From Candidatus Saccharimonadota bacterium (GTDB lineage: Bacteria > Patescibacteriota > Saccharimonadia > Saccharimonadales > Saccharimonadaceae), in NCBI GenBank assembly GCA_024699125.1, contig JAILQE010000010.1:1-51303 (forward strand): a stretch of DNA of 51,303 nucleotides. The letters are read 5' to 3'. The position numbers and the translations under genes were made by a program. Below the pieces are notes generated by a model. It was not told the origin of the DNA. It ran no database searches and saw only the letters and a list, made by a program, of their open reading frames with translations. The number at the start of each line of letters is the position of its first letter. Position 1 is the first letter of the stretch. This document shows, piece after piece, positions 1,435-48,993 of the stretch.

Positions 1435-4400
1435 ATGCATAAAAAAGGTGGACTCTATAAATTCTTAGGGAGTTTATTGGTGATCTTTTTTGCGTTGGTC
1501 GTAAATATTATTTCTGTTTCCGATGTAAAAGCAGAATATGGAGTTGGCACTGGTGTAAATACGTCTGGTGGTGGGTGTAAGGTAAATAGTAGCGGTTTTG
1601 TAACCAACGCTAACCAATGGTGGGACACTTGTTATGGGCTTGCTTGGCACTATTATGAGTGGCCAACGAATTCTGATGGCACGCCAGTTAATTCAGACAT
1701 CGAGTTTCACTGTACTTCGGCCACTTGTGGTGGTAGTACTGTGAAAAATAAGGTTTCTAAGGAATGTGGCAAACCAGAGTATGGTGGTGGTTTTTGGTAC
1801 CTTGGTTATGAGGTTTACAGCCCAGACAGTAGCCTAGATGGCCCGAATGATGCTCATAACATTGGTGTGCCAGTTGGCAAGCCGAGGGTGGATTTTTTGC
1901 CGGCATGGGTTAGTGTTCCTGGCGTTATTAAAAACACTAGCGTAACGGCGGGGCTTTATCCATTTGGTGCGAAGGATAACGCAAATAATGATGTATACAA
2001 TATTAGTACACTAAAGAACAAGGATTATATAGATATTGATCATACCGGCATTAAAAAAGCTAATGGTACAGCATATGTTCCTGGCAGATGTTCAAATTAT
2101 AGCTGGATTGGGAACGATAAAGCGCGATGTGTGAGGGATTTTCTTTTTTGGCCAAAGATTTCAATTAATGGTACTTATTATGCGGTTGAAAGTAAATATT
2201 ATGGGACAACATATGAAGCTTGGAATGCGTTCCAACGTATCGGTGATTTAGTCTCTGGCGGTGGTGCAACTACGTTTGGTGCAGTGAACTGGTTTTGCTC
2301 TGGTGAAACCGGCGATCTTTCTGGGCGTTCTGGCGTACAGGTTAATTCCGGTGGTACGGAATATACAGGCTGGACAAATAATTCAGCAAATAACTCAACT
2401 ACAAAGGTGACTAGCTCGTCTTCGCCAGTGACGGTTACTGGTAATGTAACGGTGACCTTTTATCACGAAGTAAAGGGTGCAGGGAACACCAAGGTTAAGG
2501 CTGAAATTAATCAGAGCTCACTAAAGAATAATGGTTGGGGCGATTTGTCTCGGAATTATTCTGGCACAAGTTCGAGCGATTCAAATACATGGTCACGTCA
2601 ACGTGTAGTTTCTGCATCCGAAATTAGTAGTTCTGGCACTACGGTTTGCGACACAATGACTTTTGAAGGAAATATTCAGAGCACCGCTTGCGTTACGTTG
2701 AAGGCGCAGGTTGATATTCCGAAAAACAATGTAAACGGCAAGAGTACGGTGTCGGCGGGTGGTAGCTCGGCGATAAGCGAGGCTGCGAATGGTGGCAACG
2801 GCGCGAGTAAGACCATAATAGTGCATGTGCCGGTAATTAAGAATAGCGAGTCTATTAATGTCGCGTTTACTCATGGTATTACCGCGACGAAATCGGTGAG
2901 TGGGGTGACACAAACTGCAAATGGCGTACAATATAGCGTTGCGCAAAGTACGAGTGGCACTGCGGGTGGCGCAGGAGTGAGTGCATATTCACTAGGTACA
3001 ACTTCAAGTAATATTACTGTGGCAGCAGCATCTCCATCGAGTGTGTTGTCGGTGGCTACACCAACGGTTACAGTGAGTGGTATTACGGCAAGCACAGATT
3101 ATACGGTTTGCCAGACTTTGTCGATGACATATGGTGGCGGTGGCGCTAGAACTACGCAGGTTTGCGCCAGGATTATTGGGCATCAGATTTCGAGCAAGAG
3201 CACCATCAAAAACACAGGATCGGGAGCAACTACAAATACGAGCACCGATGGTGGTACGGCTAGTTTGACTGCAACCGATGTGGTAGTGCAAAGCGGTACA
3301 AAAACCGTTACGCTCAACTTTGCGCATGAATTATCGATGGCTCGCCATAGTGGTACTTCTGGGGCGATTAGTACTAACGTAAGTTACGAGGTTACGCAGA
3401 CTACTAGCGGCAAGAATGCGACGGCTTCATCGTTCAGTACGGCCACCGGTACTAAAACCGTAACGATAGCAAATGGAGCAAATTCCGGTTCTGTTACTGC
3501 GAGTTCTGGCAATATTACTGTAAGTAATATTACTGCGAGCACGGATTTTACAGTTTGCCAGACTTTGAAAGCTACTTATAGTAGCAAAACGCGCACCACT
3601 GCGGTTTGTGCTAGGATAGTGGGTAGCTCGGTTTCGAGTTATAGCAGCGTAAAGTATGGTAGTAATTCAGCTAAATCCACTAGTGTAAATAATGCTACGG
3701 CTACAGAAACCATCAATATAACAGTGGCAAATGGTGGTACTACGTCGGTGAAGGTTAATTTTGAACACGGTATTAGCTATAGTTCGGCAGTTTCTAGCGA
3801 CTTAAGCTCAACTACGTCTTATACGGTGACTCAAAAGCGCGATAGCGGATCAGCGACAACTGTTGCAAGTGGCAGCAAGACTTTAACTATGAAACCGGCT
3901 GCACCGGCACCATCTGCTACGGTAAGTAGTGGTGAAGTCACGATAAATAATATCACGAATTCTACCGATACTACCGTGTGCCAGACTTTGGTGGCAGTAA
4001 GAGATGGCAATACGCGCACCACTACGGCTTGCGCCAGGGTTGTAGGCAACCCAGTTACGGGTTACAGCGCAGCTTCGCATACGCAGGCGGGCAATATTAC
4101 GTCGTCGGCTCATAGCGGTACACAGACGCTTGGTCCAGTGTATGTGACGGTGAAACCGGGTGCTAGCGATGGTTCTGCCATAGTGACGTTTACTCACACG
4201 GCCAAAATTACTCGTACCAAAAATGATTCTGGTACTATTACTACCGGTAACGTACCATATACGATTGAGCAAACTTTGGATGGGCTTGCGACTGCTAATG
4301 TGACAGCATTTAGCACAGTAAGCAGTAATGTGAATTTGACTTTGGCGGCATCTACGCCTTCGGCAACTTCGCAACTGAAGTCTACTAATATTACAGTGAG

Positions 4401-7400
4401 CAATATTACACCAAGTACGGATGGCAAGGTTTGCCAGAAGCTGACAATTTCAAGCTATGTAACCACGGTTTGCGCGCGCATTAAGGGGCGTAGCTTTGTG
4501 GTGAGGGGTCAAAGTCAGGTAGGAAATAGTTCCACCGACATCAAGAAATATACTGGTTGGGTAAGTGATGCTACGAAGGTCACGGCTGATCTTGGCAGTG
4601 TGTATACGCCATATGGCGGTACGAGTACAAAAAATGTGTACTTTGATCACGCGCTTTGGGCGCAGTTGAGCGGTAATACCTATGCCAATGTTGATACCGG
4701 AAACATTACTTATACAATTTCACGTACTCCGGGCGGTAATGTATCTGCTAACCAGACCAAGTCCTTTACGGTCTCGAACGATAGCGCAACTTCGGCTAGT
4801 GTTTGGAATGGTACGTTGGCAGCCTCGGTAGGGAATGGTGGTAATACGATTTGTCAAAAGATCAGCTTTAGCTATGGTACTACAAGCGGCGGGCCGGAGG
4901 CTTGTGCGACGATTACTGGTGTGCCGCCATCTTTTACTGGTAAAAGTACAGTAACGGCAAATGGTACGAGTGTTGAAACTACCACTAATAATCAAACGGT
5001 GAATTTGCCAGAGATTAAGCTTAATGTTGCCTATACTAAGACCGTAACGCAGAGAATTACTTTTGGTCATAACATGACGGCGACTTCTGACCGTGATGAT
5101 GCTAAGGGCAAGGCTACGGGCACGATGCCGTATACGATTTCGAGAGATTATGGGAATAATACTACGGGCAACTTTAGCGGCACTTTCCCAAGCAACGCAA
5201 CTACTTATACTGGTGCGGTGGGTACGAGCAATGATTATGTTGATGTTACGGTGGGTCCGGGTGAATCTAAGACAGTCTGCCAAACCATCACCTTTAGCGG
5301 CTGGAGCACTAAAGCCTGCGCCAAGGTGACCGGTGTATTGGTGCTGCCTGATTTAAGCAGCCAAAGCTCGATTATGTATGAGACTTCCAGCAATACCCGT
5401 ACGGCTACTACCGAATGGGCTAATAAAAATAGCAGCACGAAGTCTGCCGAGATCGGCACTAAGATTTATTTGCCGGTACGTGAGGTAGAAGATGCCAATG
5501 GTGGTAGGGAAATGAGCTTAAAATTTGTGCACAATTTGATGGCTGCATTAGTTGAAAACATGACGTGGCTGAATACTGGTGATGTGAACTATTCAATTGT
5601 GACTACACATAACGGAACAACGGTTGATACGTTAAATGATTCCTTTAATCATACAGTAACTTCAGCCAACGTTTTGTCCGTAAAAAATATTAGTACTAAT
5701 ACGCACGCATTTAAGGTAAAGATTAACGAAGAAATAAGGGTTTGCCAAGCCTTTACCTTTAGTTATAAGGGCGCTAACTTTAGTACTACGGTTTGCGCAA
5801 ACGTTTATGGCATTCCATCGGATCCGGGTGGGCGCAGCACGGCTAAAATTACTGGTTACGAAGGGGTAGCCGATACTGAATGGGTGAACGGTAGAGTTTC
5901 TAGGGTGACGCTAGAAGTTGATAAAAGTACGATCAAGGGTAGCGACGTAGTATTTAACCACTTTGTACGTATTGCTGGCAAACGCACTCTGCGTGTTGAA
6001 GGTTATACGATTACCAATGATTATAGCAGTGAATACAATACTAATTTTACTGGCACTCTCGAGATTGAGGGGCATAGCGACAACTCTTACACGATATATT
6101 CTCTTTATACAAATGGGCGCGGAAAAGATATTACGACGGCTGATGCGCAGGGCATGTACGACAAAGGTTCAGCCTGTGAGACTTTGAGCTTTGACTTTGA
6201 AGGCATTAATTATACTTCTACGTCCTGTATCGATTTCAAGAAAAAACCACCAATTGAAAACGAAGATGATTGTCCGGACCTTACTAGCTACCATGCTTTG
6301 AACGGCGGTGAAACGGTTAGCTATAGCTATGTAAAGAGTAATGTGAAGTCGGGAGATTATCAGACATTGATTTATGCTAAACCAACTGACGTTATTAAGT
6401 TTACGCACTGTTATTATCCAGGTGCGCAAGAGACACGTTACACTAATGCTGACGAAAACCCTTACAAGGTATCGACTAACAATGGTAAGACGGTGATTAT
6501 TCCGGTGCGCAATGCGTATATCGAATCGGCTAATGATATCGAAATCAAAGATAAGGAAGGCACGGATTCGTTCGTTGGTAACCGTAACGAATATAACTTT
6601 GATCTCTACGGCCAAATCTTAAGCCAAAACGGTAGGGTCTTTAGTGGCGTAGTAGGAAACTACAACTACACGATGTTCCTCTCTAGCGAAACGGCAGTTA
6701 ATAGCAATGCTGTGGGTGGTGTTATCGAACAGTCTTTGTGGTCTTACCATGGCAACAACGCAACTTTAGGTCACGATAGGGCAAACTGTGGCTCTAACTG
6801 CTTGGTATATTACAAGAATGGTGACGACAATAACTGGTATAACATTTCTGCTAAGAATACGACTTCGGAGCGTGGCAAGAGCTCGGCAGCGCAGGTTATT
6901 GTGCCTTACAACTATGTAACAGTAGGCAAGATTAATAATAGTAGCGATGTGGTTTATCCGGGTGAGAGCATGTCTGGTGGTGATGTAAAGATCGACGTAA
7001 ACAAACGCTATAATAGCGCGGTGGGCGAAGAATATGCCACCAAGACGGCTCCTTCTGTGATCAGGCTTTACACTTTCTATACTGAAAACAGTGGCGCTTC
7101 TGAAGGCGCTGATCACCAAACTGCTGGTAGTGACGTGAATGCTTGTAGTTATTACAATGGGCTCGGCTTCGGTAATACCTGTGCGAAGATTGGCGAAGTA
7201 AATGACCGGGTATTCAACTCGCAGAGTAAGATTCAAGGTGAAATCAACGAAGCGGTGTCTGGCTTTGAAGCTAGTTACAACGTGCCGGATTTGCCGGCTG
7301 GCTCGAAGGTATGTTTGGGTGTGTCCGTTTATCCGGCCGCTTCTACCGATACCGAACCTTCAAATGGCAACACCTTTGTATCGAAGGCGTATTGCCGCAC

Positions 7401-8499
7401 GATCGCCAAGAAACCTTCCTTCCAGATTTGGGGTGGTAGCTTGTTTGCAGCCGGTGATGTGCTTGGTACGGTGGCAACCAAATATACGATCAAAGGCGTG
7501 AACGATGCAGATTACTCTCCATTTAAGGAACAAGGCAAAAACAGTGTGAACTTTGGTTCATGGGTTGAACATGCAATTATGGCTAACGGTAGAATCAACA
7601 ACGTATCTTCTGGTGCTGGCACTGGTTATGGCCAAACCGGAATGGTTGTGGATGTAGAACATCCTGGTGGCGCCGTGGTGTCTGGTAGTTTAACTCATAC
7701 GGATTTCTGCAATCGTAGTAGACTCAGCTTCGCTAATACGAACTGTGTGTCTGGCTATGCGGGTCGCTTTGGTGCTGGTGGTGTAACCTATACCAAGACC
7801 ACTTTGCGCCAAGAATTTGCCGAGAAAGCCGAGGCTAAAGAAAAGGCTGCGGGAGTTTCTCGCAAGACCAGCGCCAACTGGACCGTTCTTGACCTGAGTT
7901 CGCCAGCGAATTATACCCAAATTGATAACGTGCGTTATACCTTTGTTGAATATGGCAATGTGGCGATTACGGCTTCGGCTGAGCTTGAGCCGGGAATCAC
8001 GCACATTGTTTATGCCAAAGAGAATGAAAATGATCATGTTGGCGGTAGCGTCGTGATTTACGGCAATGGTACGGGGCTTGGTTATGGCGATGGCGCCTAT
8101 CAAACGATTGGCGAGATTCCACAATATGTGATTATCGCCGACAAGAATCTTTATATTGATCGCCTCGTGACGCGCGTAGATGCGATTCTAGTGGCTGGTG
8201 GCACAATCAACTCCTGCGCAAAGTATGTTGGTGACGATGTGACTGCGGCTACGAAAGATGCAAAGAACGAAATCCAAGATGTTTACTGTAACCAACAACT
8301 ACGCATTAACGGTGTGGTGATTGCGGACGCGATGAAACTTTACCGTATTTACGGCGCTTCGTCTGGGCTCGATTCGATTACTCCGGCCGAGGTGATTAAC
8401 TACTCGCCAAGCGTTTATATGTGGGGTGACGACAGCGCTTCTACGGGCTCGCCACAAGTGTATACTACATATCTTCGTGAACTGGCGCCAAGGCAATAG
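1435..8499 (+). CDS. giant secreted repeat protein with paired cysteines (2354 aa)
   Basis: The N-terminus is a signal peptide (basic MHKKGG, hydrophobic core about residues 10-27, cut probably after VKA). A Cys-containing N-terminal domain of about 320 aa follows. Then come about nine repeats of 120-160 aa, each ending in a motif of the form TVCQTL...TTxVCARVxG. The two cysteines per repeat probably form a disulfide. The repeats are Ser/Thr/Asn-rich and beta-strand-like. The last ~550 aa are a different, non-repetitive domain (for example VVIYGNGTGLGYG and IIADKNLYIDRLVTRVDAIL). There is no sortase motif or C-terminal membrane helix. It is probably a cell-surface adhesin or host-contact protein, which is an inference. 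Expression is predicted leaderless. Confidence 0.8.
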   Translation: MHKKGGLYKFLGSLLVIFFALVVNIISVSDVKAEYGVGTGVNTSGGGCKVNSSGFVTNANQWWDTCYGLAWHYYEWPTNSDGTPVNSDIEFHCTSATCGGSTVKNKVSKECGKPEYGGGFWYLGYEVYSPDSSLDGPNDAHNIGVPVGKPRVDFLPAWVSVPGVIKNTSVTAGLYPFGAKDNANNDVYNISTLKNKDYIDIDHTGIKKANGTAYVPGRCSNYSWIGNDKARCVRDFLFWPKISINGTYYAVESKYYGTTYEAWNAFQRIGDLVSGGGATTFGAVNWFCSGETGDLSGRSGVQVNSGGTEYTGWTNNSANNSTTKVTSSSSPVTVTGNVTVTFYHEVKGAGNTKVKAEINQSSLKNNGWGDLSRNYSGTSSSDSNTWSRQRVVSASEISSSGTTVCDTMTFEGNIQSTACVTLKAQVDIPKNNVNGKSTVSAGGSSAISEAANGGNGASKTIIVHVPVIKNSESINVAFTHGITATKSVSGVTQTANGVQYSVAQSTSGTAGGAGVSAYSLGTTSSNITVAAASPSSVLSVATPTVTVSGITASTDYTVCQTLSMTYGGGGARTTQVCARIIGHQISSKSTIKNTGSGATTNTSTDGGTASLTATDVVVQSGTKTVTLNFAHELSMARHSGTSGAISTNVSYEVTQTTSGKNATASSFSTATGTKTVTIANGANSGSVTASSGNITVSNITASTDFTVCQTLKATYSSKTRTTAVCARIVGSSVSSYSSVKYGSNSAKSTSVNNATATETINITVANGGTTSVKVNFEHGISYSSAVSSDLSSTTSYTVTQKRDSGSATTVASGSKTLTMKPAAPAPSATVSSGEVTINNITNSTDTTVCQTLVAVRDGNTRTTTACARVVGNPVTGYSAASHTQAGNITSSAHSGTQTLGPVYVTVKPGASDGSAIVTFTHTAKITRTKNDSGTITTGNVPYTIEQTLDGLATANVTAFSTVSSNVNLTLAASTPSATSQLKSTNITVSNITPSTDGKVCQKLTISSYVTTVCARIKGRSFVVRGQSQVGNSSTDIKKYTGWVSDATKVTADLGSVYTPYGGTSTKNVYFDHALWAQLSGNTYANVDTGNITYTISRTPGGNVSANQTKSFTVSNDSATSASVWNGTLAASVGNGGNTICQKISFSYGTTSGGPEACATITGVPPSFTGKSTVTANGTSVETTTNNQTVNLPEIKLNVAYTKTVTQRITFGHNMTATSDRDDAKGKATGTMPYTISRDYGNNTTGNFSGTFPSNATTYTGAVGTSNDYVDVTVGPGESKTVCQTITFSGWSTKACAKVTGVLVLPDLSSQSSIMYETSSNTRTATTEWANKNSSTKSAEIGTKIYLPVREVEDANGGREMSLKFVHNLMAALVENMTWLNTGDVNYSIVTTHNGTTVDTLNDSFNHTVTSANVLSVKNISTNTHAFKVKINEEIRVCQAFTFSYKGANFSTTVCANVYGIPSDPGGRSTAKITGYEGVADTEWVNGRVSRVTLEVDKSTIKGSDVVFNHFVRIAGKRTLRVEGYTITNDYSSEYNTNFTGTLEIEGHSDNSYTIYSLYTNGRGKDITTADAQGMYDKGSACETLSFDFEGINYTSTSCIDFKKKPPIENEDDCPDLTSYHALNGGETVSYSYVKSNVKSGDYQTLIYAKPTDVIKFTHCYYPGAQETRYTNADENPYKVSTNNGKTVIIPVRNAYIESANDIEIKDKEGTDSFVGNRNEYNFDLYGQILSQNGRVFSGVVGNYNYTMFLSSETAVNSNAVGGVIEQSLWSYHGNNATLGHDRANCGSNCLVYYKNGDDNNWYNISAKNTTSERGKSSAAQVIVPYNYVTVGKINNSSDVVYPGESMSGGDVKIDVNKRYNSAVGEEYATKTAPSVIRLYTFYTENSGASEGADHQTAGSDVNACSYYNGLGFGNTCAKIGEVNDRVFNSQSKIQGEINEAVSGFEASYNVPDLPAGSKVCLGVSVYPAASTDTEPSNGNTFVSKAYCRTIAKKPSFQIWGGSLFAAGDVLGTVATKYTIKGVNDADYSPFKEQGKNSVNFGSWVEHAIMANGRINNVSSGAGTGYGQTGMVVDVEHPGGAVVSGSLTHTDFCNRSRLSFANTNCVSGYAGRFGAGGVTYTKTTLRQEFAEKAEAKEKAAGVSRKTSANWTVLDLSSPANYTQIDNVRYTFVEYGNVAITASAELEPGITHIVYAKENENDHVGGSVVIYGNGTGLGYGDGAYQTIGEIPQYVIIADKNLYIDRLVTRVDAILVAGGTINSCAKYVGDDVTAATKDAKNEIQDVYCNQQLRINGVVIADAMKLYRIYGASSGLDSITPAEVINYSPSVYMWGDDSASTGSPQVYTTYLRELAPRQ

Positions 8500-43762: not shown

Positions 43763-44380
43763 GTGGGAATTGTGGGCAAGAAAGAAAAGCCAGAGCAGGC
43801 ACCGAGGCTTGCAAAGAGATCACTTAACAAAAAGTCCAAGATAAAGATTGGGCGAGCGATTGTTGAAAAAAGAGAACGACTGGAAACGGCGTCTGAGCGG
43901 GTTGCTGCGCGCAAAAAAGGGAAGAGGCAGAAGGTTTTAAGAGTCATTTTGGTTATTATCGGGTTTTCGCTCATTGTTGGCACGATTGTAGCCATTGTTA
44001 AAAATGTTATTAGTGGCGAAGAAGGTGGCGGATTAACGGAGACAATTGTTTTGCCATATGAGCCGACGATTGAACTTGTGGATGAAGCGGCCGGAAATCA
44101 CAAGATTTCCAGCCGGATGCGCGAATATGTGGGGCAAGCTGAGAGTGATTTTAGAGATCTTGGCTATACGCCGCTTCGGGCGGTGATTCCGGCGGGCGCA
44201 ATTAGAGAGGTGGATTTCTATCTTTCCGGGTGGAATGGCAGGATTAAGTTGACGATTGATCGCGAAACGGCGGTGTCCGTAGAGGATGCAGACAGAATGC
44301 TAAGGTATTTACAGGGAATTGGTGTATCTGAATTTGAGTATATCGATGTACGGGTGGAAGGGAAAGGATACTGGAAATAA
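43763..44380 (+). CDS. FtsQ-like division protein
   Basis: A 205-aa bitopic protein with a long basic cytoplasmic tail (about 1-60), one membrane helix (about 62-82) and an extracytoplasmic domain of about 120 aa. It is assigned FtsQ-like by position after murG and by topology. A POTRA domain cannot be confirmed by eye. GTG 43763 or GTG 43772 may be the start; AAGGTGGG fits better with the second. Its stop runs directly into an array of AACAGGGG repeats. Confidence 0.6.
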   Translation: MGIVGKKEKPEQAPRLAKRSLNKKSKIKIGRAIVEKRERLETASERVAARKKGKRQKVLRVILVIIGFSLIVGTIVAIVKNVISGEEGGGLTETIVLPYEPTIELVDEAAGNHKISSRMREYVGQAESDFRDLGYTPLRAVIPAGAIREVDFYLSGWNGRIKLTIDRETAVSVEDADRMLRYLQGIGVSEFEYIDVRVEGKGYWK

Positions 44381-45475
44381 CAGGGGTGCAACAGGGGTAG
44401 AACAGGGGTGATTCTGCTCTTCTGATGGTTCTCTACCCTATTGTTCGGTTTTTGTTCTGTATGGGTTTTCGGCAAATATGCACGCGCTGGAGTAGGGGAT
44501 TAACAGGGGAAAATACATAATAGGGAAACATAAATGGGGAAAAGTCAAATCCGAAAATCCGGGGCCGTGAAAAGTGGCGTGAAAAGTAAATCCCACAATG
44601 AACCTGTGGAAAAGTCAAACAAGCACCTCGTAAAACACATATTAGTATTTTATTAAGACATCTTCTAAAATGCCCAGTGGATCCAGCTTTAGTTAGCGGT
44701 TATATAATAGGGTTCTTTTAGTCTTAATTAAATACTAATTTGTGTTTTAAAAGATCATCATTTGGCATTTACCACAGAACCCTGGAGTGATTCTCTCCTA
44801 TTATAGGAGAATTATGGGTGGAGCGGGTGGATGTTTATATATCCCGGCAGCTGCTTCTTTAATGTCTTAAAATATGTATTGTACGACATTAGACTTGTAA
44901 ATGAAAGTCGATTGACTTTGCGTCTTTTTGCCGTGGTTTTTATTCTGCTTATGGTTTTTTTCGAATAATTCCCCATTTTGTTTGTGGGTCTTCTACGTTT
45001 CTGGGCCTTTAATTCTATATTTGTGCGTTTTTTGGCTTTTACAGGGGCCGCCAGGGGTTTTATAGGGGCGTAACAGGGGTGGTATAGGGAGATAATAGAC
45101 ATATAACAGAGGCGAAACAGGGGAGCATAGGGTATAAACAGTGCTATACTGGCGTTTTGACGGTCAAAAAGCCCCTGTTATCAGAGAGGGAACAGGGGTA
45201 GATTTGTTAATTCCCTTTTAATTCTTAGGGGAATTATTAAATTTGCGTTTTTTATTGAAGTTCTTTTTAGGTTTTTCTTGATCGTTTTTCCCTGCTTCTT
45301 GTTCCTTTTCGGCTACGAGCTTGGCCAAATCTTTTAAGCCCATTCTTTCTTTACCTTCAGCGGCGTTTGGGCTGAGGTTTTGCTTTTTGAAGTCATCTTT
45401 AGCGGTCTTTGGGAACTTAGGCTTGTAGGCAAAGTTCGGTTTTTGTTCGTTTCTAACAGGGGTGAAAACAGGGGT
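44379..45475. repeat. AACAGGGG(T/A) repeat array
   Basis: Three copies of AACAGGGGT lie at 44379, 44390 and 44401, exactly 11 bp apart. Further copies are at 44502, 45072, 45116 and 45191, and one is inverted at 45172-45179. Two more (45455 and 45467, 12 bp apart) lie inside the tail of the downstream ATPase gene. Degenerate forms (TATAGGGG, TACAGGGG, CCAGGGGT, AACAGAGG) occur between 45039 and 45110. The inverted and direct copies at 45172 and 45191 can form a hairpin. It looks like an iteron-type or multi-site protein binding region. Confidence 0.75.
44381..45217. other. 837-bp intergenic region after the dcw cluster
   Basis: This is the longest gene-free stretch of the window. Besides the AACAGGGG array it holds TGTGGAAAA (a DnaA-box-like TTTTCCACA on the minus strand, near 44605) and an AT-rich middle (about 44635-44790). 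It also holds a perfect CTCCTA-TTA-TAGGAG hairpin (about 44796-44810) just before a doubtful 18-codon ORF (44814-44870). The palindrome TTTTGACGGTCAAAA (45155-45169) completes it. A basic 96-aa minus-strand ORF (44812-45102) exists, but I cannot support it as a gene. Confidence 0.6.
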
Positions 45476-47944
45476 AGAATCTTCTGGTTGGCGACCGGAG
45501 TCTGAGAGTTCTTTCTTGTATTTTTCGGATTGCTCGATGGTTTCGCGGATTTCGGCTTCTACGGAAGCGCGAGAGCGGGCGTATTTAGCGCGGGAGGCAG
45601 CAATAATGGCGTCGAAATTATCCTTTGGAGACTTCGGAATTGACAAGGTGGTAGCCGAGAAGGCTGGGACTTTTTCGCCGTTGATAATCATTGAAATAAC
45701 AAAGTGACGGTTGTTAAGCTGGATGATATCAGACTCTTCGAAGGTTGGCTCAAACTGCTTAATGAGGACTGGAGCATCATCGGCGGAGACGCGGAATGAG
45801 ATGGTGGTACCGACGTTGCCGAATACTGCATCGCGTACGGAATCAGTCATCTGGGCTACGTATTGGTTAGCTACGGTAAGGTTAAGACCGTATTTGCGAG
45901 CCTCAGAAAGAATTACGGCGAAGGAATCGGTAGCGAAGTTTTGGAACTCATCTACGTAAAGATAGAATGGGCGGCGATCTTCAATATTGGCGATGTCGGA
46001 ACGCGACATAGCTGCAAGCTGAACTTTAGTCACGAGGAAGGCACCAAGGATACTGGCGTTATCTTCGCCAATGAGACCTTTTGATAGGTTGACGACGAGG
46101 ATTTTACCTTCGTCCATAATCTTGCGGATATCAAACGAAGACTTTGGTTGGCCGATGATATTACGAATGATTGGGTTTGCGGTAAAGGCACCCACCTTGT
46201 TAAGTACTGGAGCGATAGATTCGTTGATTTGTTTATCATTCCATTGGCCGAACTCGTGTTTCCAGAATTGAAGCACGGTGACATCCGTACAATAATCGAG
46301 GGTTTCTTTACGAAAATCTTTATCGGTAAGCATACGGGAAATATCAAGAAGGGTGGTTTCTGGGCGATCAAGCAAGGCGAGAAGGGTATAGCGAAGGATG
46401 TGCTCAAGACGAGGGCCCCAAGAATCGCCGAACATACGTTTAAGGACGCCGATAACCTCAGAGCAAATGTTTGGTTTGCGGCTTGGATCGGAGACTTCAA
46501 GTGGGTTGAAGGCTACTGGATAGGCCGTATCGGCTGGGTTGAAGTAGACAACATCCTTAATACGAGACTCTGGCACGAAACGCAAGTTATCAATGGCAAA
46601 GTCGCCGTGCGGATCGATAATACAATAGCCGTGATTATAGAAAGTATCAGAGAGCGCAAGAAGTTCTAGAAGGCCGCTTTTCCCTGCCCCGGTTTGACCA
46701 ATAATATATAAATGACGCGAACGATCGCGACGGAGTAAGCCGAATTGGTGGTTGATGCCGCGGAAGTTGGTAAGACCAAAAGCGGAGATGTTTTCGTCGA
46801 TACTTGGCGTGCCGGTAAGAACCGGAAGCTTGGCTGGTGGCTCGGCAGTTTTGGAGTTGGCCCAGACGATATTAGGGGTTTCCACAGAGGTGTGCGGCAA
46901 GTGATATACCGAAGCGAGCTCAGAGATATTCAAGATAAAGCCGCGATCGGTGAATTGGCGCATCTTGTAAGCGTTGAGATCGTTTGGATTGAAGCTGCCG
47001 CCGGACATCTTGAAACCGTTGAGGTTGGTTGAGTTGAACTGTTTGAAGGTACCGACGAGAGCTTGCATGTTGAGCTTAGCATCCACATCGGATTTACCGA
47101 GGTAGGCAAGGCGGATTTTAACTTCGTAGCCAAGCTTGGTAGCTTTTTCTTCAGCCTTTTCGATACGGGTTTTGTCGCGTTCGGAGAGCTCAATTTTAAC
47201 TTCAGAATTGGTACCGCCGGCTGGTGGGCGGAAAAGCGCACCGAGCGCCTCAACGAGCCAACTCCAGTCGATGCCAGTAGAGGTAAAGAAGCCACTTTTG
47301 CCGCCGGCTTTGACTTTCTTAACCCATTTATCGGTGGTGTCTTTGTGCCAATCGTCTGGAATTGGGCGGGTGAGAATTTGGATCCAGAGTTCTTCGGAAT
47401 TATCTGGATCGAGTTTAGCAAGTGTACCAGTGATGCCGGCAAGTGGATCGACTTCGAACGTGTCGAAGGTTTTAATTGGCAATACTTCGTTGTCGGTCAA
47501 TGAAAGTTCGGTTGAATATATAACAGGATATTTAGAACGGTTGTCGACATAATCTTCGTTCATGCGATAAATTTGCACGGTTGGGTATTGGGAATAAATT
47601 TGGCCCTCTACGAAGCTTTGCAAAACCTTTGGCACCCATACATAAAAACGAATTTGGCCAGCGGTAGAAACGATTTCAAATGACAAATGCTCTTGCACGC
47701 CGCCGGAATTTCTAAGTTCGGCTTTGTCGCGCAAAATACCATGAAGTGAAGCAAAAAGCTGCTCGGCCGCGAGCTCTTTTTTGTCGTTGGCGCGCGGGAT
47801 TTCAAGCATCAAAAGTACAGAATCAACATTTAAGACTTTGATTTTATTGAGTTTTTTATAGTTGCGATAAGTTAGATAGGCTAATAAAAGAACAACCGGA
47901 ATCCAAAATATTGGCATTAGAATAAATTGTATGACGCTGTCCAT
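45218..47944 (-). CDS. type IV secretion/conjugation-type ATPase (VirD4/TraG/HerA-like)
   Basis: A 908-aa protein with an N-terminal membrane helix (about 6-26), a ~380-aa region of unclear fold and a P-loop motor. Walker A is IGQTGAGKSGLLE, then IIDPHGDFA, Walker B FYLYVDEFQNFATDS and VANQYVAQM. This is the pattern of coupling-protein or HerA/VirB4-type ATPases with a TraM-recognition-like part. The last ~130 residues are charged and low-complexity, and carry two AACAGGGG repeats in the DNA (TPVFTPVRNE). It may power DNA or pilus traffic across the membrane. TAAAAT is 6 nt before the start, so the mRNA should be leaderless. Confidence 0.7.
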   Translation of the reverse strand: MDSVIQFILMPIFWIPVVLLLAYLTYRNYKKLNKIKVLNVDSVLLMLEIPRANDKKELAAEQLFASLHGILRDKAELRNSGGVQEHLSFEIVSTAGQIRFYVWVPKVLQSFVEGQIYSQYPTVQIYRMNEDYVDNRSKYPVIYSTELSLTDNEVLPIKTFDTFEVDPLAGITGTLAKLDPDNSEELWIQILTRPIPDDWHKDTTDKWVKKVKAGGKSGFFTSTGIDWSWLVEALGALFRPPAGGTNSEVKIELSERDKTRIEKAEEKATKLGYEVKIRLAYLGKSDVDAKLNMQALVGTFKQFNSTNLNGFKMSGGSFNPNDLNAYKMRQFTDRGFILNISELASVYHLPHTSVETPNIVWANSKTAEPPAKLPVLTGTPSIDENISAFGLTNFRGINHQFGLLRRDRSRHLYIIGQTGAGKSGLLELLALSDTFYNHGYCIIDPHGDFAIDNLRFVPESRIKDVVYFNPADTAYPVAFNPLEVSDPSRKPNICSEVIGVLKRMFGDSWGPRLEHILRYTLLALLDRPETTLLDISRMLTDKDFRKETLDYCTDVTVLQFWKHEFGQWNDKQINESIAPVLNKVGAFTANPIIRNIIGQPKSSFDIRKIMDEGKILVVNLSKGLIGEDNASILGAFLVTKVQLAAMSRSDIANIEDRRPFYLYVDEFQNFATDSFAVILSEARKYGLNLTVANQYVAQMTDSVRDAVFGNVGTTISFRVSADDAPVLIKQFEPTFEESDIIQLNNRHFVISMIINGEKVPAFSATTLSIPKSPKDNFDAIIAASRAKYARSRASVEAEIRETIEQSEKYKKELSDSGRQPEDSTPVFTPVRNEQKPNFAYKPKFPKTAKDDFKKQNLSPNAAEGKERMGLKDLAKLVAEKEQEAGKNDQEKPKKNFNKKRKFNNSPKN

Positions 47945-47964: not shown

Positions 47965-48993
47965 TTAGGCCAAAGTATAAGAGTTTTTGTCGATCTTTTT
48001 GAAGAGTTTTTTGTTCTGAAGATTGAGCAAAATGGTGGTCTCTTTAACTTTGCGGGTTTTGAGCACCTGTTTAACAATTTCTTCGCGGGTCAAAGGTTTT
48101 TCAGATTTTTCAAGGATAGCTTTGATGATATCAGAAACGGTTCCCTTGCTGTAGCCCCAAGTGCTAAGAGCATAGATACCGCGGCCGATCAAAACAAAGC
48201 GAGAATCTTTGATGAGTTCGTTGTGAATAGCTTGAATAGTGACATTCTTGCGTTTGAATTTAGAATCAGCAATTCCCTTTGCGATTTCGGAGAAGTGCAT
48301 CGGTTCTTTCTTAGCTTCGAGAATTACGAAGATCTTGTCACGGATGTTCTTTGGGTTGACTGAAGGCCATTTAGCAAGACCCCAGATGCCATTAAGGCTG
48401 GCGAGAAGTTTAGAAATTGACGCCACGGCTTTAATGTGGTCAGGATGTTCATAATTTAGTTTATTGTCAAGCTCCTCGATCGTCATAGGCTTTTTGTTCT
48501 CTTTGACGATAGAGACGATTTCGTCTACTTTGCCACGGATGGTTTTTTCGTCGCCATATTCAGCGATGCCAACAGCGGCATTATATTTGTCGTTTTCTTC
48601 AATAACGGTAAGATTGTTCGAAAAAGTGGCAATGAAATATATGCCAGTACGTTCTTTATTAGTGGTTGCCTTGCCGTAAACTTTGTCGGCGAGGTCTGAG
48701 ATTTTGGCGATGCGGCCCATCTCGGTAAGATTGCGAATAAGGATTTTTTCAGCGGCGGTCAGCTCGGGTATTTTGTTCTCCTCAGCGGAAATTTGGAGAC
48801 GAATTAAAATAGCCTTCTCTAGTTGACGCACGCGCTCACGAGTAATCGACAACATTTCGCCAATTTGCTCGAGCGTTTCTTTAGTTCCGGATAAACCGAA
48901 GCGTCGAGAGATAATTTCTTTTTCGCGATCTTGCTCAATGATTTTGAGGCTGCCCGCGATTGCATTTTTTAGGATTTCCGCATTTTTGTCCAT
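47965..48993 (-). CDS. sigma-region-4-like/HARE-HTH transcription protein
   Basis: A 342-aa protein. Residues about 15-70 match sigma70 region 4 (REKEIISRRFGLSG, then LEQIGEMLSITRERVRQLEK), the part that reads the -35 element. No region 2 precedes it. Further on are HARE-HTH/RpoE-delta-like winged-helix modules, at least two (KKEPMHFSEIAKGIADSKFK and KPLTREEIVKQVLKTRKVKE). It could be an RNA-polymerase-associated regulator that binds -35-like DNA without melting it. The promoter TTGACG-N17-TATTAT and a weak AAGGA site lie upstream. It sits 20 nt before the ATPase gene. Confidence 0.75.
   Translation of the reverse strand: MDKNAEILKNAIAGSLKIIEQDREKEIISRRFGLSGTKETLEQIGEMLSITRERVRQLEKAILIRLQISAEENKIPELTAAEKILIRNLTEMGRIAKISDLADKVYGKATTNKERTGIYFIATFSNNLTVIEENDKYNAAVGIAEYGDEKTIRGKVDEIVSIVKENKKPMTIEELDNKLNYEHPDHIKAVASISKLLASLNGIWGLAKWPSVNPKNIRDKIFVILEAKKEPMHFSEIAKGIADSKFKRKNVTIQAIHNELIKDSRFVLIGRGIYALSTWGYSKGTVSDIIKAILEKSEKPLTREEIVKQVLKTRKVKETTILLNLQNKKLFKKIDKNSYTLA

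Follow-up and report, generated by a model that had tools for sequence, protein, structure and literature searches.

Background

Fused chromosomes are separated by the Xer recombinase at the dif site, towards which the FtsK pump is guided. The guiding words (KOPS or SRS) are read by the gamma domain of FtsK or SpoIIIE and include GGGNAGGG in Escherichia coli and Vibrio cholerae, and GAGAAGGG. Short repeats also serve another translocase, TraB of Streptomyces, which recognises 8-bp repeats (clt) of plasmids. Described dif sites of bacteria and archaea (E. coli dif, difH, difSL and archaeal dif) have a 28-bp core, in which two 11-bp partly palindromic arms enclose a 6-bp centre, and occur once per chromosome where the FtsK-guiding polarity inverts. 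A position at the GC-skew shift opposite the origin is their usual correlate and no requirement (PMC3025954). At the plasmid Xer sites cer and psi, accessory proteins (PepA, ArgR, ArcA) bend or bundle the DNA, on a protein-binding sequence of about 180 bp beside the Xer core (PMC5357621).

The locus studied here lies in a window (the whole stretch of DNA that was analysed, 51,303 nucleotides, contig C2) of a genome of 765,546 bases in 13 contigs, with an assembly about 99% complete. Among named genomes its nearest relatives are MAGs that carry the label Candidatus Saccharibacteria and come mainly from ruminant and other animal guts; the collections searched likewise comprise MAGs, which may be incomplete or misjoined, and all of the evidence below is drawn from sequence. 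The locus shares with known dif sites the core anatomy, the single occurrence and the position at a polarity inversion, and with the XerH, XerS and XerA systems the finding of one tyrosine recombinase (PMC5357621, PMC2958812). It differs from them in the AACAGGGG and GTTC direct-repeat arrays and the long hairpin around dif, in a GC skew that keeps its sign there, and in a recombinase gene that is not next to dif (it lies on contig C9), unlike those of XerS and XerH. Its array lies at a distance from the core comparable to that of the accessory sequences of cer and psi, but it accompanies a chromosomal dif, and the likeness is one of position and phasing. With TraB and clt it shares repeated 8-bp words near a DNA-translocase gene; here, however, the ATPase is TrwB/HerA-like rather than FtsK-like, is chromosomal and stands next to dif, and it is a candidate for recognising them. 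Among the words of these bacteria, AGGGAA in this genus and GGGNAGGG in other Saccharibacteria families act like KOPS, whereas AACAGGGG has the opposite orientation right of dif and forms a local array, not a chromosome-wide word. The analysis places a putative dif and an apparent FtsK-guiding word in tiny host-dependent bacteria. The papers searched report neither; nothing relevant on dif or KOPS in Saccharibacteria, or on the word AACAGGGG, was found in those under open licence.

The repeat array

Ten exact copies of AACAGGGG were found in the window, all within 44379-45474 and none elsewhere, against 0.86 on average and at most 4 in shuffled windows. An earlier note on this DNA had described a near-identical repeat array seen nowhere else in the window; that observation is confirmed, and its interpretation is partly supported. 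Nine copies are on the forward strand (44379, 44390, 44401, 44502, 45072, 45116, 45191, 45455 and 45467). Exact-match counts and a repeat search defined a left cluster of three forward units (44379..44408) in exact 11-bp steps, as the note had it, the first of which overlaps the TAA stop codon of the ftsQ-like gene. The copy at 44502 belongs to a left element, AACAGGGGAAAATACATAATAGGGAAACATAAATGGGGAAAAGTCAAA (44502..44549, forward strand), that is kept among loci and contains a KOPS-like AGGGAA at 44522; its words ACAGGGAA, GGGAAATA and TGTCAAAT were among the commonest left of dif in 41 loci. The right cluster (45041..45135, forward strand) held about eight units with the consensus WAYAGGGG, two of them exact (45072 and 45116), and formed a degenerate run in an 11-bp register (spacing 11, 11, 11, 11, 11, 11).

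Further right, a TTTTGACGGTCAAAA palindrome (45155-45169) is followed by the one inverted copy of AACAGGGG (45172..45179, reverse strand), by a forward copy at +330 from dif (45191..45198) and by a forward pair 12 bp apart (45455..45474) in the coding tail of the ATPase gene, where the reverse strand reads STPVFTPVR. The inverted copy, the palindrome, a DnaA-box-like TGTGGAAAA (44605-44613) and the two copies in the C-terminal coding tail (45455 and 45467) had all been listed, and all are present. The same holds for the 837-bp intergenic stretch, which extends from the ftsQ-like stop at 44380 to the ATPase stop at 45218.

Tandem copies were almost confined to the dif locus, unlike single copies. 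Of the nine tandem matches in the genome (AGGGGN5-8AGGGG), seven sat in this locus, and a second pattern (CAGGGGN3-5ACAGGGG), compared with the ATPase positions in the genus genomes G000-G035, gave 21 of 23 matches at the same place. The genome as a whole has 28 copies of AACAGGGG in 765,546 bases, so single copies are scattered, and those outside the dif locus are often intergenic.

A dif-like site in the array

Overlooked by the earlier note, a dif-like Xer site, AATGTCTTAAAATATGTATTGTACGACATT (44861..44890, forward strand), lies at the centre of the array, and we regard it as a putative dif. Its 28-bp core (44862-44889) consists of two 11-bp partly palindromic arms, ATGTCTTAAAA and TTGTACGACAT, around the 6-bp centre TATGTA; the genus consensus is AATGTCgTAAAATaTgTATTGTGCGACATT. 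The site keeps this place in 41 distinct loci of the genus, and many other families of Saccharibacteria have it there as well. With up to 8 mismatches allowed, the genome gave no further match except the reverse strand of the site itself. The core agreed with E. coli dif, taken as its reverse complement, at 15 of 28 positions. In archaea, sites that agree with the bacterial consensus at 14-18 positions have been accepted as dif (PMC2958812). The genome yielded a single tyrosine recombinase (G000:C9:86596-87129).

In many Saccharibacteria families dif was found 0.3-2 kb downstream of the same ATPase gene, in a widely kept gene order of topA, winged-helix protein, ATPase, dif, ftsQ, murG and ftsW. 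A Berkelbacteria locus (L149) has a dif-like TATGTCGCATAATGTATCTTATGCGACATT at 7285, roughly 1 kb downstream of its copy of this ATPase gene (4001-6289).

FtsK-guiding polarity and GC skew

When a relative assembled in three contigs (G034) was searched for words that reverse at dif, AGGGAA stood out clearly from the rest, with 58:1 copies in the two orientations left of dif and 3:51 right of it. The corresponding counts were 38:0 and 1:7 in the window, where the flip occurs within about 0.7 kb, and 94:8 and 18:125 when 19 same-genus loci were pooled. AGGGAA points towards dif on both sides, as a KOPS does, and its polarity is independent of gene strand; since it holds on genes of both strands, it is no coding effect. 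The putative dif lies at this inversion in both the window and G034, and gene direction also reverses there. The diverging pole is elsewhere, at about 65-70 kb of contig C9, which carries dnaA at 31.8 kb.

In 19 loci of other families it is GGGNAGGG that behaves as a KOPS (13:0 left of dif, 1:14 right). The FtsK gamma domain scored about 95-106 bits in other families versus 33-42 in this genus, in which the recognition helix is replaced throughout (GKGHGFVSGLAIWFEE in place of RVGYARAARLIETMEE). The gamma domain of the present genome is at G000:C9:74280-74459; its sequence had no match in a sequence search of the PDB. It appears that the predicted KOPS word of the genus and the recognition helix of FtsK changed together, the word from GGGNAGGG to AGGGAA. 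Such a switch would offer a natural experiment in the joint change of a chromosome-wide signal and its reader.

GC skew, which the earlier note had suggested as a check for an origin or terminus, kept its sign across dif in the window (1-51303) and in G034 (G034:C2 and G034:C3). With the sign constant at the array, it seems that replication forks neither start nor stop there. About 170 kb past dif, the skew of G034 has fallen to roughly zero. The window also contains, close to the left end of the contig, a 2354-aa reading frame (1435-8499) in an area where this assembly and that of G034 both appear to break.

Conservation of the array and selection on the DNA word

AACAGGGG ranked first among the octamers of the 420 bp right of dif. 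It was found there in 38 of 41 distinct same-genus loci, at 190-400 bp from dif; the other three had no exact copy on the right. The background expectation for this interval is 0.7% per locus, and a control window inside the ATPase gene gave 0/41. Copies right of dif were strongly biased in strand (86 vs 2), and they occupied the interval from +190 to +400 whether or not the ATPase gene extends into it. Outside that gene neighbouring copies were mostly 11, 22, 33 or 44 bp apart; inside it 12 bp was the commonest spacing, 12 being the multiple of three closest to 11. Species differed in the number of copies and in their exact position. The 41 loci are kin, and p-values accordingly overstate their independence.

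The copies in the coding tail allow the DNA word to be told from the peptide. In the xPV triplets of the ATPase tail, proline was encoded by CCT in 73 of 77 cases (15% genome-wide), and the full form NNC-CCT-GTT occurred in 56/77, compared with 17/345 genome-wide (p ~1e-36, kinship of the loci ignored). As these codons are rare elsewhere, the simplest reading is that selection acts on the DNA word rather than on the peptide, which is what the earlier note had suggested. The coding copies were all in one frame (59/59). We set this aside as a protein-level signal because only that frame gives acceptable residues (PV), and the frame recurs in other genes; the test that carries information here is codon usage.

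In many other families dif is retained with no AACAGGGG nearby. Five loci of other families had one copy 37 or 47-48 bp left of dif, pointing away from it, and these two distances differ by one helical turn. Three further loci (L113, L114 and L118) had two copies 10-11 bp apart at about +200 from dif. The phasing of the nearest AACAGGGG to dif was weak (R 0.38, p ~0.004 before correction).

Neighbouring genes

The array runs into the 3′ end of a gene for a TrwB/TraG/HerA-like ATPase of 908 aa (45218..47944, reverse strand), whose hydrophobic N-terminus is a probable membrane anchor. The ATPase was found in 60 of the 60 genomes searched, including families without the array. TrwB_AAD_bind, DUF87 and TraG-D_C matched it narrowly above the Pfam cut-offs, and all NCBIfam matches were far below cut-off; no DNA-recognition domain was seen in its tail. 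In most loci the gene directly upstream of it encodes a 342-aa protein (47965..48993, reverse strand) in which a sigma-70 region 4 precedes a row of winged helices (HARE-HTH). The model of this protein had a mean pLDDT of 91, and its closest folds were the SelB winged-helix chain and sigma region 4. This linkage of ATPase, winged-helix protein and dif is seen across families of Saccharibacteria and at one locus from Berkelbacteria. On the other side of the array, convergent with the ATPase gene, is the last gene of the dcw cluster (43763..44380, forward strand); its 205-aa product had no family match, and it is called ftsQ-like by its position.

Proposed role and alternative explanations

On balance we favour the reading that the AACAGGGG array consists of predicted binding sites, in tandem and in helical phase, for a sequence-specific DNA-binding protein, and that it forms part of the chromosomal dif (terminus) locus. 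Lying on both sides of dif, it looks like a terminus or segregation element and not like an origin of replication or transfer. The earlier note had proposed a helically phased protein-binding array, selection on the DNA within the coding tail and, among other roles, a segregation site. All three proposals are strengthened by the dif-like site in the middle, the conservation in 38 of 41 loci and the codon usage. A protein bound to the array would bend, bundle or anchor the DNA beside dif, and would thereby give Xer recombination and the last step of chromosome separation their correct position and geometry. A DNA-bending or -bundling protein would be well matched to tandem sites spaced by one helical turn near a recombination site, as at cer and psi. 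One guess at the reader of the array is the five-module helix-turn-helix protein encoded nearby (47965-48993), which might hand the site to the co-encoded ATPase; the confident chain of sigma region 4 and winged helices in this 342-aa protein would suit tandem sites. The association of the array with these genes may reflect no more than a conserved gene order. A broader proposal is more speculative, and we consider it rather unlikely as it stands: that Saccharibacteria have a dif-linked accessory system in which the multi-winged-helix protein and the TrwB/HerA-like ATPase recognise the phased AACAGGGG array (and the GTTC repeats) and serve, alongside FtsK, as a second motor or anchor at the terminus. 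No system of this make-up was described in the papers searched. The conserved array at dif means that its binding protein can now be sought.

The G-rich octamer adjoins dif and has AACAGGG in common with KOPS-like words on the left side such as AACAGGGAA, which might make the array (AACAGGGG, AACAGGGGT) an FtsK-loading sequence that steers FtsK to dif. We consider this improbable. A KOPS should point towards dif on both sides, and right of dif 86 of 88 copies point away and only 2 towards, opposite to AGGGAA there; on this orientation the KOPS reading of AACAGGGG was rejected. AGGGGT, moreover, does not reverse at dif in G034, and the array is also present in L113, L114 and L118, whose nearest sampled families by ATPase identity (G037 and G049) have a canonical FtsK gamma domain. 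Recognition of the array by the TrwB/HerA-like ATPase, with the winged-helix protein, for loading or transfer would account for the copies that extend into the 3′ end of the ATPase gene and for the linkage of both genes to dif, and it agrees with the weak TrwB, TraG-D_C and HerA matches. The ATPase, however, also occurs in families that have no array, and its tail shows no recognition domain; we think such a coupling-type site possible but unlikely. A search for the MOBP-type relaxase family PF03432 found no member in five genomes, and this absence, with the weak matches to coupling proteins, makes the transfer origin suggested in the earlier note unlikely. The same note had offered an iteron-type origin, for which phased repeats, an AT-rich stretch, the DnaA-box-like TGTGGAAAA and a long hairpin could be cited, as they could for a replication-fork trap. 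Since AGGGAA and gene polarity converge here and diverge elsewhere, and dnaA is on another contig, an origin is not supported; the unchanging GC skew also speaks against it, and we regard an origin or fork trap as very improbable.

At the level of RNA, the repeats read as CCCCUGUU at the 3′ end of the ATPase transcript, C-rich on the sense strand and spaced by 11-12 nt, and could form a Rho-dependent or other terminator that shields dif from transcription. The Rho RNA-binding domain (PF07497) was found in none of five nearly complete genomes (G000, G034, G001, G009 and G040), with 9 of 14 control genomes positive, so a Rho site was ruled out. A rut site would not be expected to be a strict octamer in any case, and other families carry the motif on the other strand and on the other side of dif; we consider an RNA-level element very improbable. 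That the copies are transcription-factor sites, or neutral repeats gathered by chance in a large intergenic region, would fit the further intergenic copies in the genome. Tandem copies are nevertheless almost confined to the dif locus; because the region is convergent, no promoter of either neighbour is expected in it, and the codon-level selection argues against neutrality. We give this reading little chance. A G-quadruplex was also considered and rejected, as many loci hold just one or two copies and the AACA part would be superfluous.

Further elements around dif

Candidate recognition words of the locus are the AACAGGGGTAG repeats, AGGGAA and GTTCGGTTTTTGTTC, an 11-bp direct repeat that occurs exactly twice in the whole genome, flanking dif. 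Its left copy (44443..44457, forward strand) was present in 35 of 41 loci and its right copy (45434..45448, forward strand) in 22 of 41; pairs of GTTC-type direct repeats flank dif in other families too. An inverted-repeat search found a long imperfect hairpin after the DnaA-box-like TGTGGAAAA (44605..44770 together; arms 44610-44659 and 44721-44770), placed between dif and the left elements. Its folding z-score was about -5 on both strands. A consensus fold of 14 sequences (MAFFT and RNAalifold) revealed no shared structure, for which excessive divergence of the sequences may be the reason, and Rfam had no match at gathering score in the region or in 15 relatives. Of the 14 species folded at this place, most had strongly negative z-scores, and the sequence of the hairpin changes rapidly. 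Many species of the genus (e.g. L031, L036 and L047) have palindromes like AGACGATTGTCTAATCGTCT at a distance of about 15 bp from dif, on one side or on both; in the window they are degenerate.
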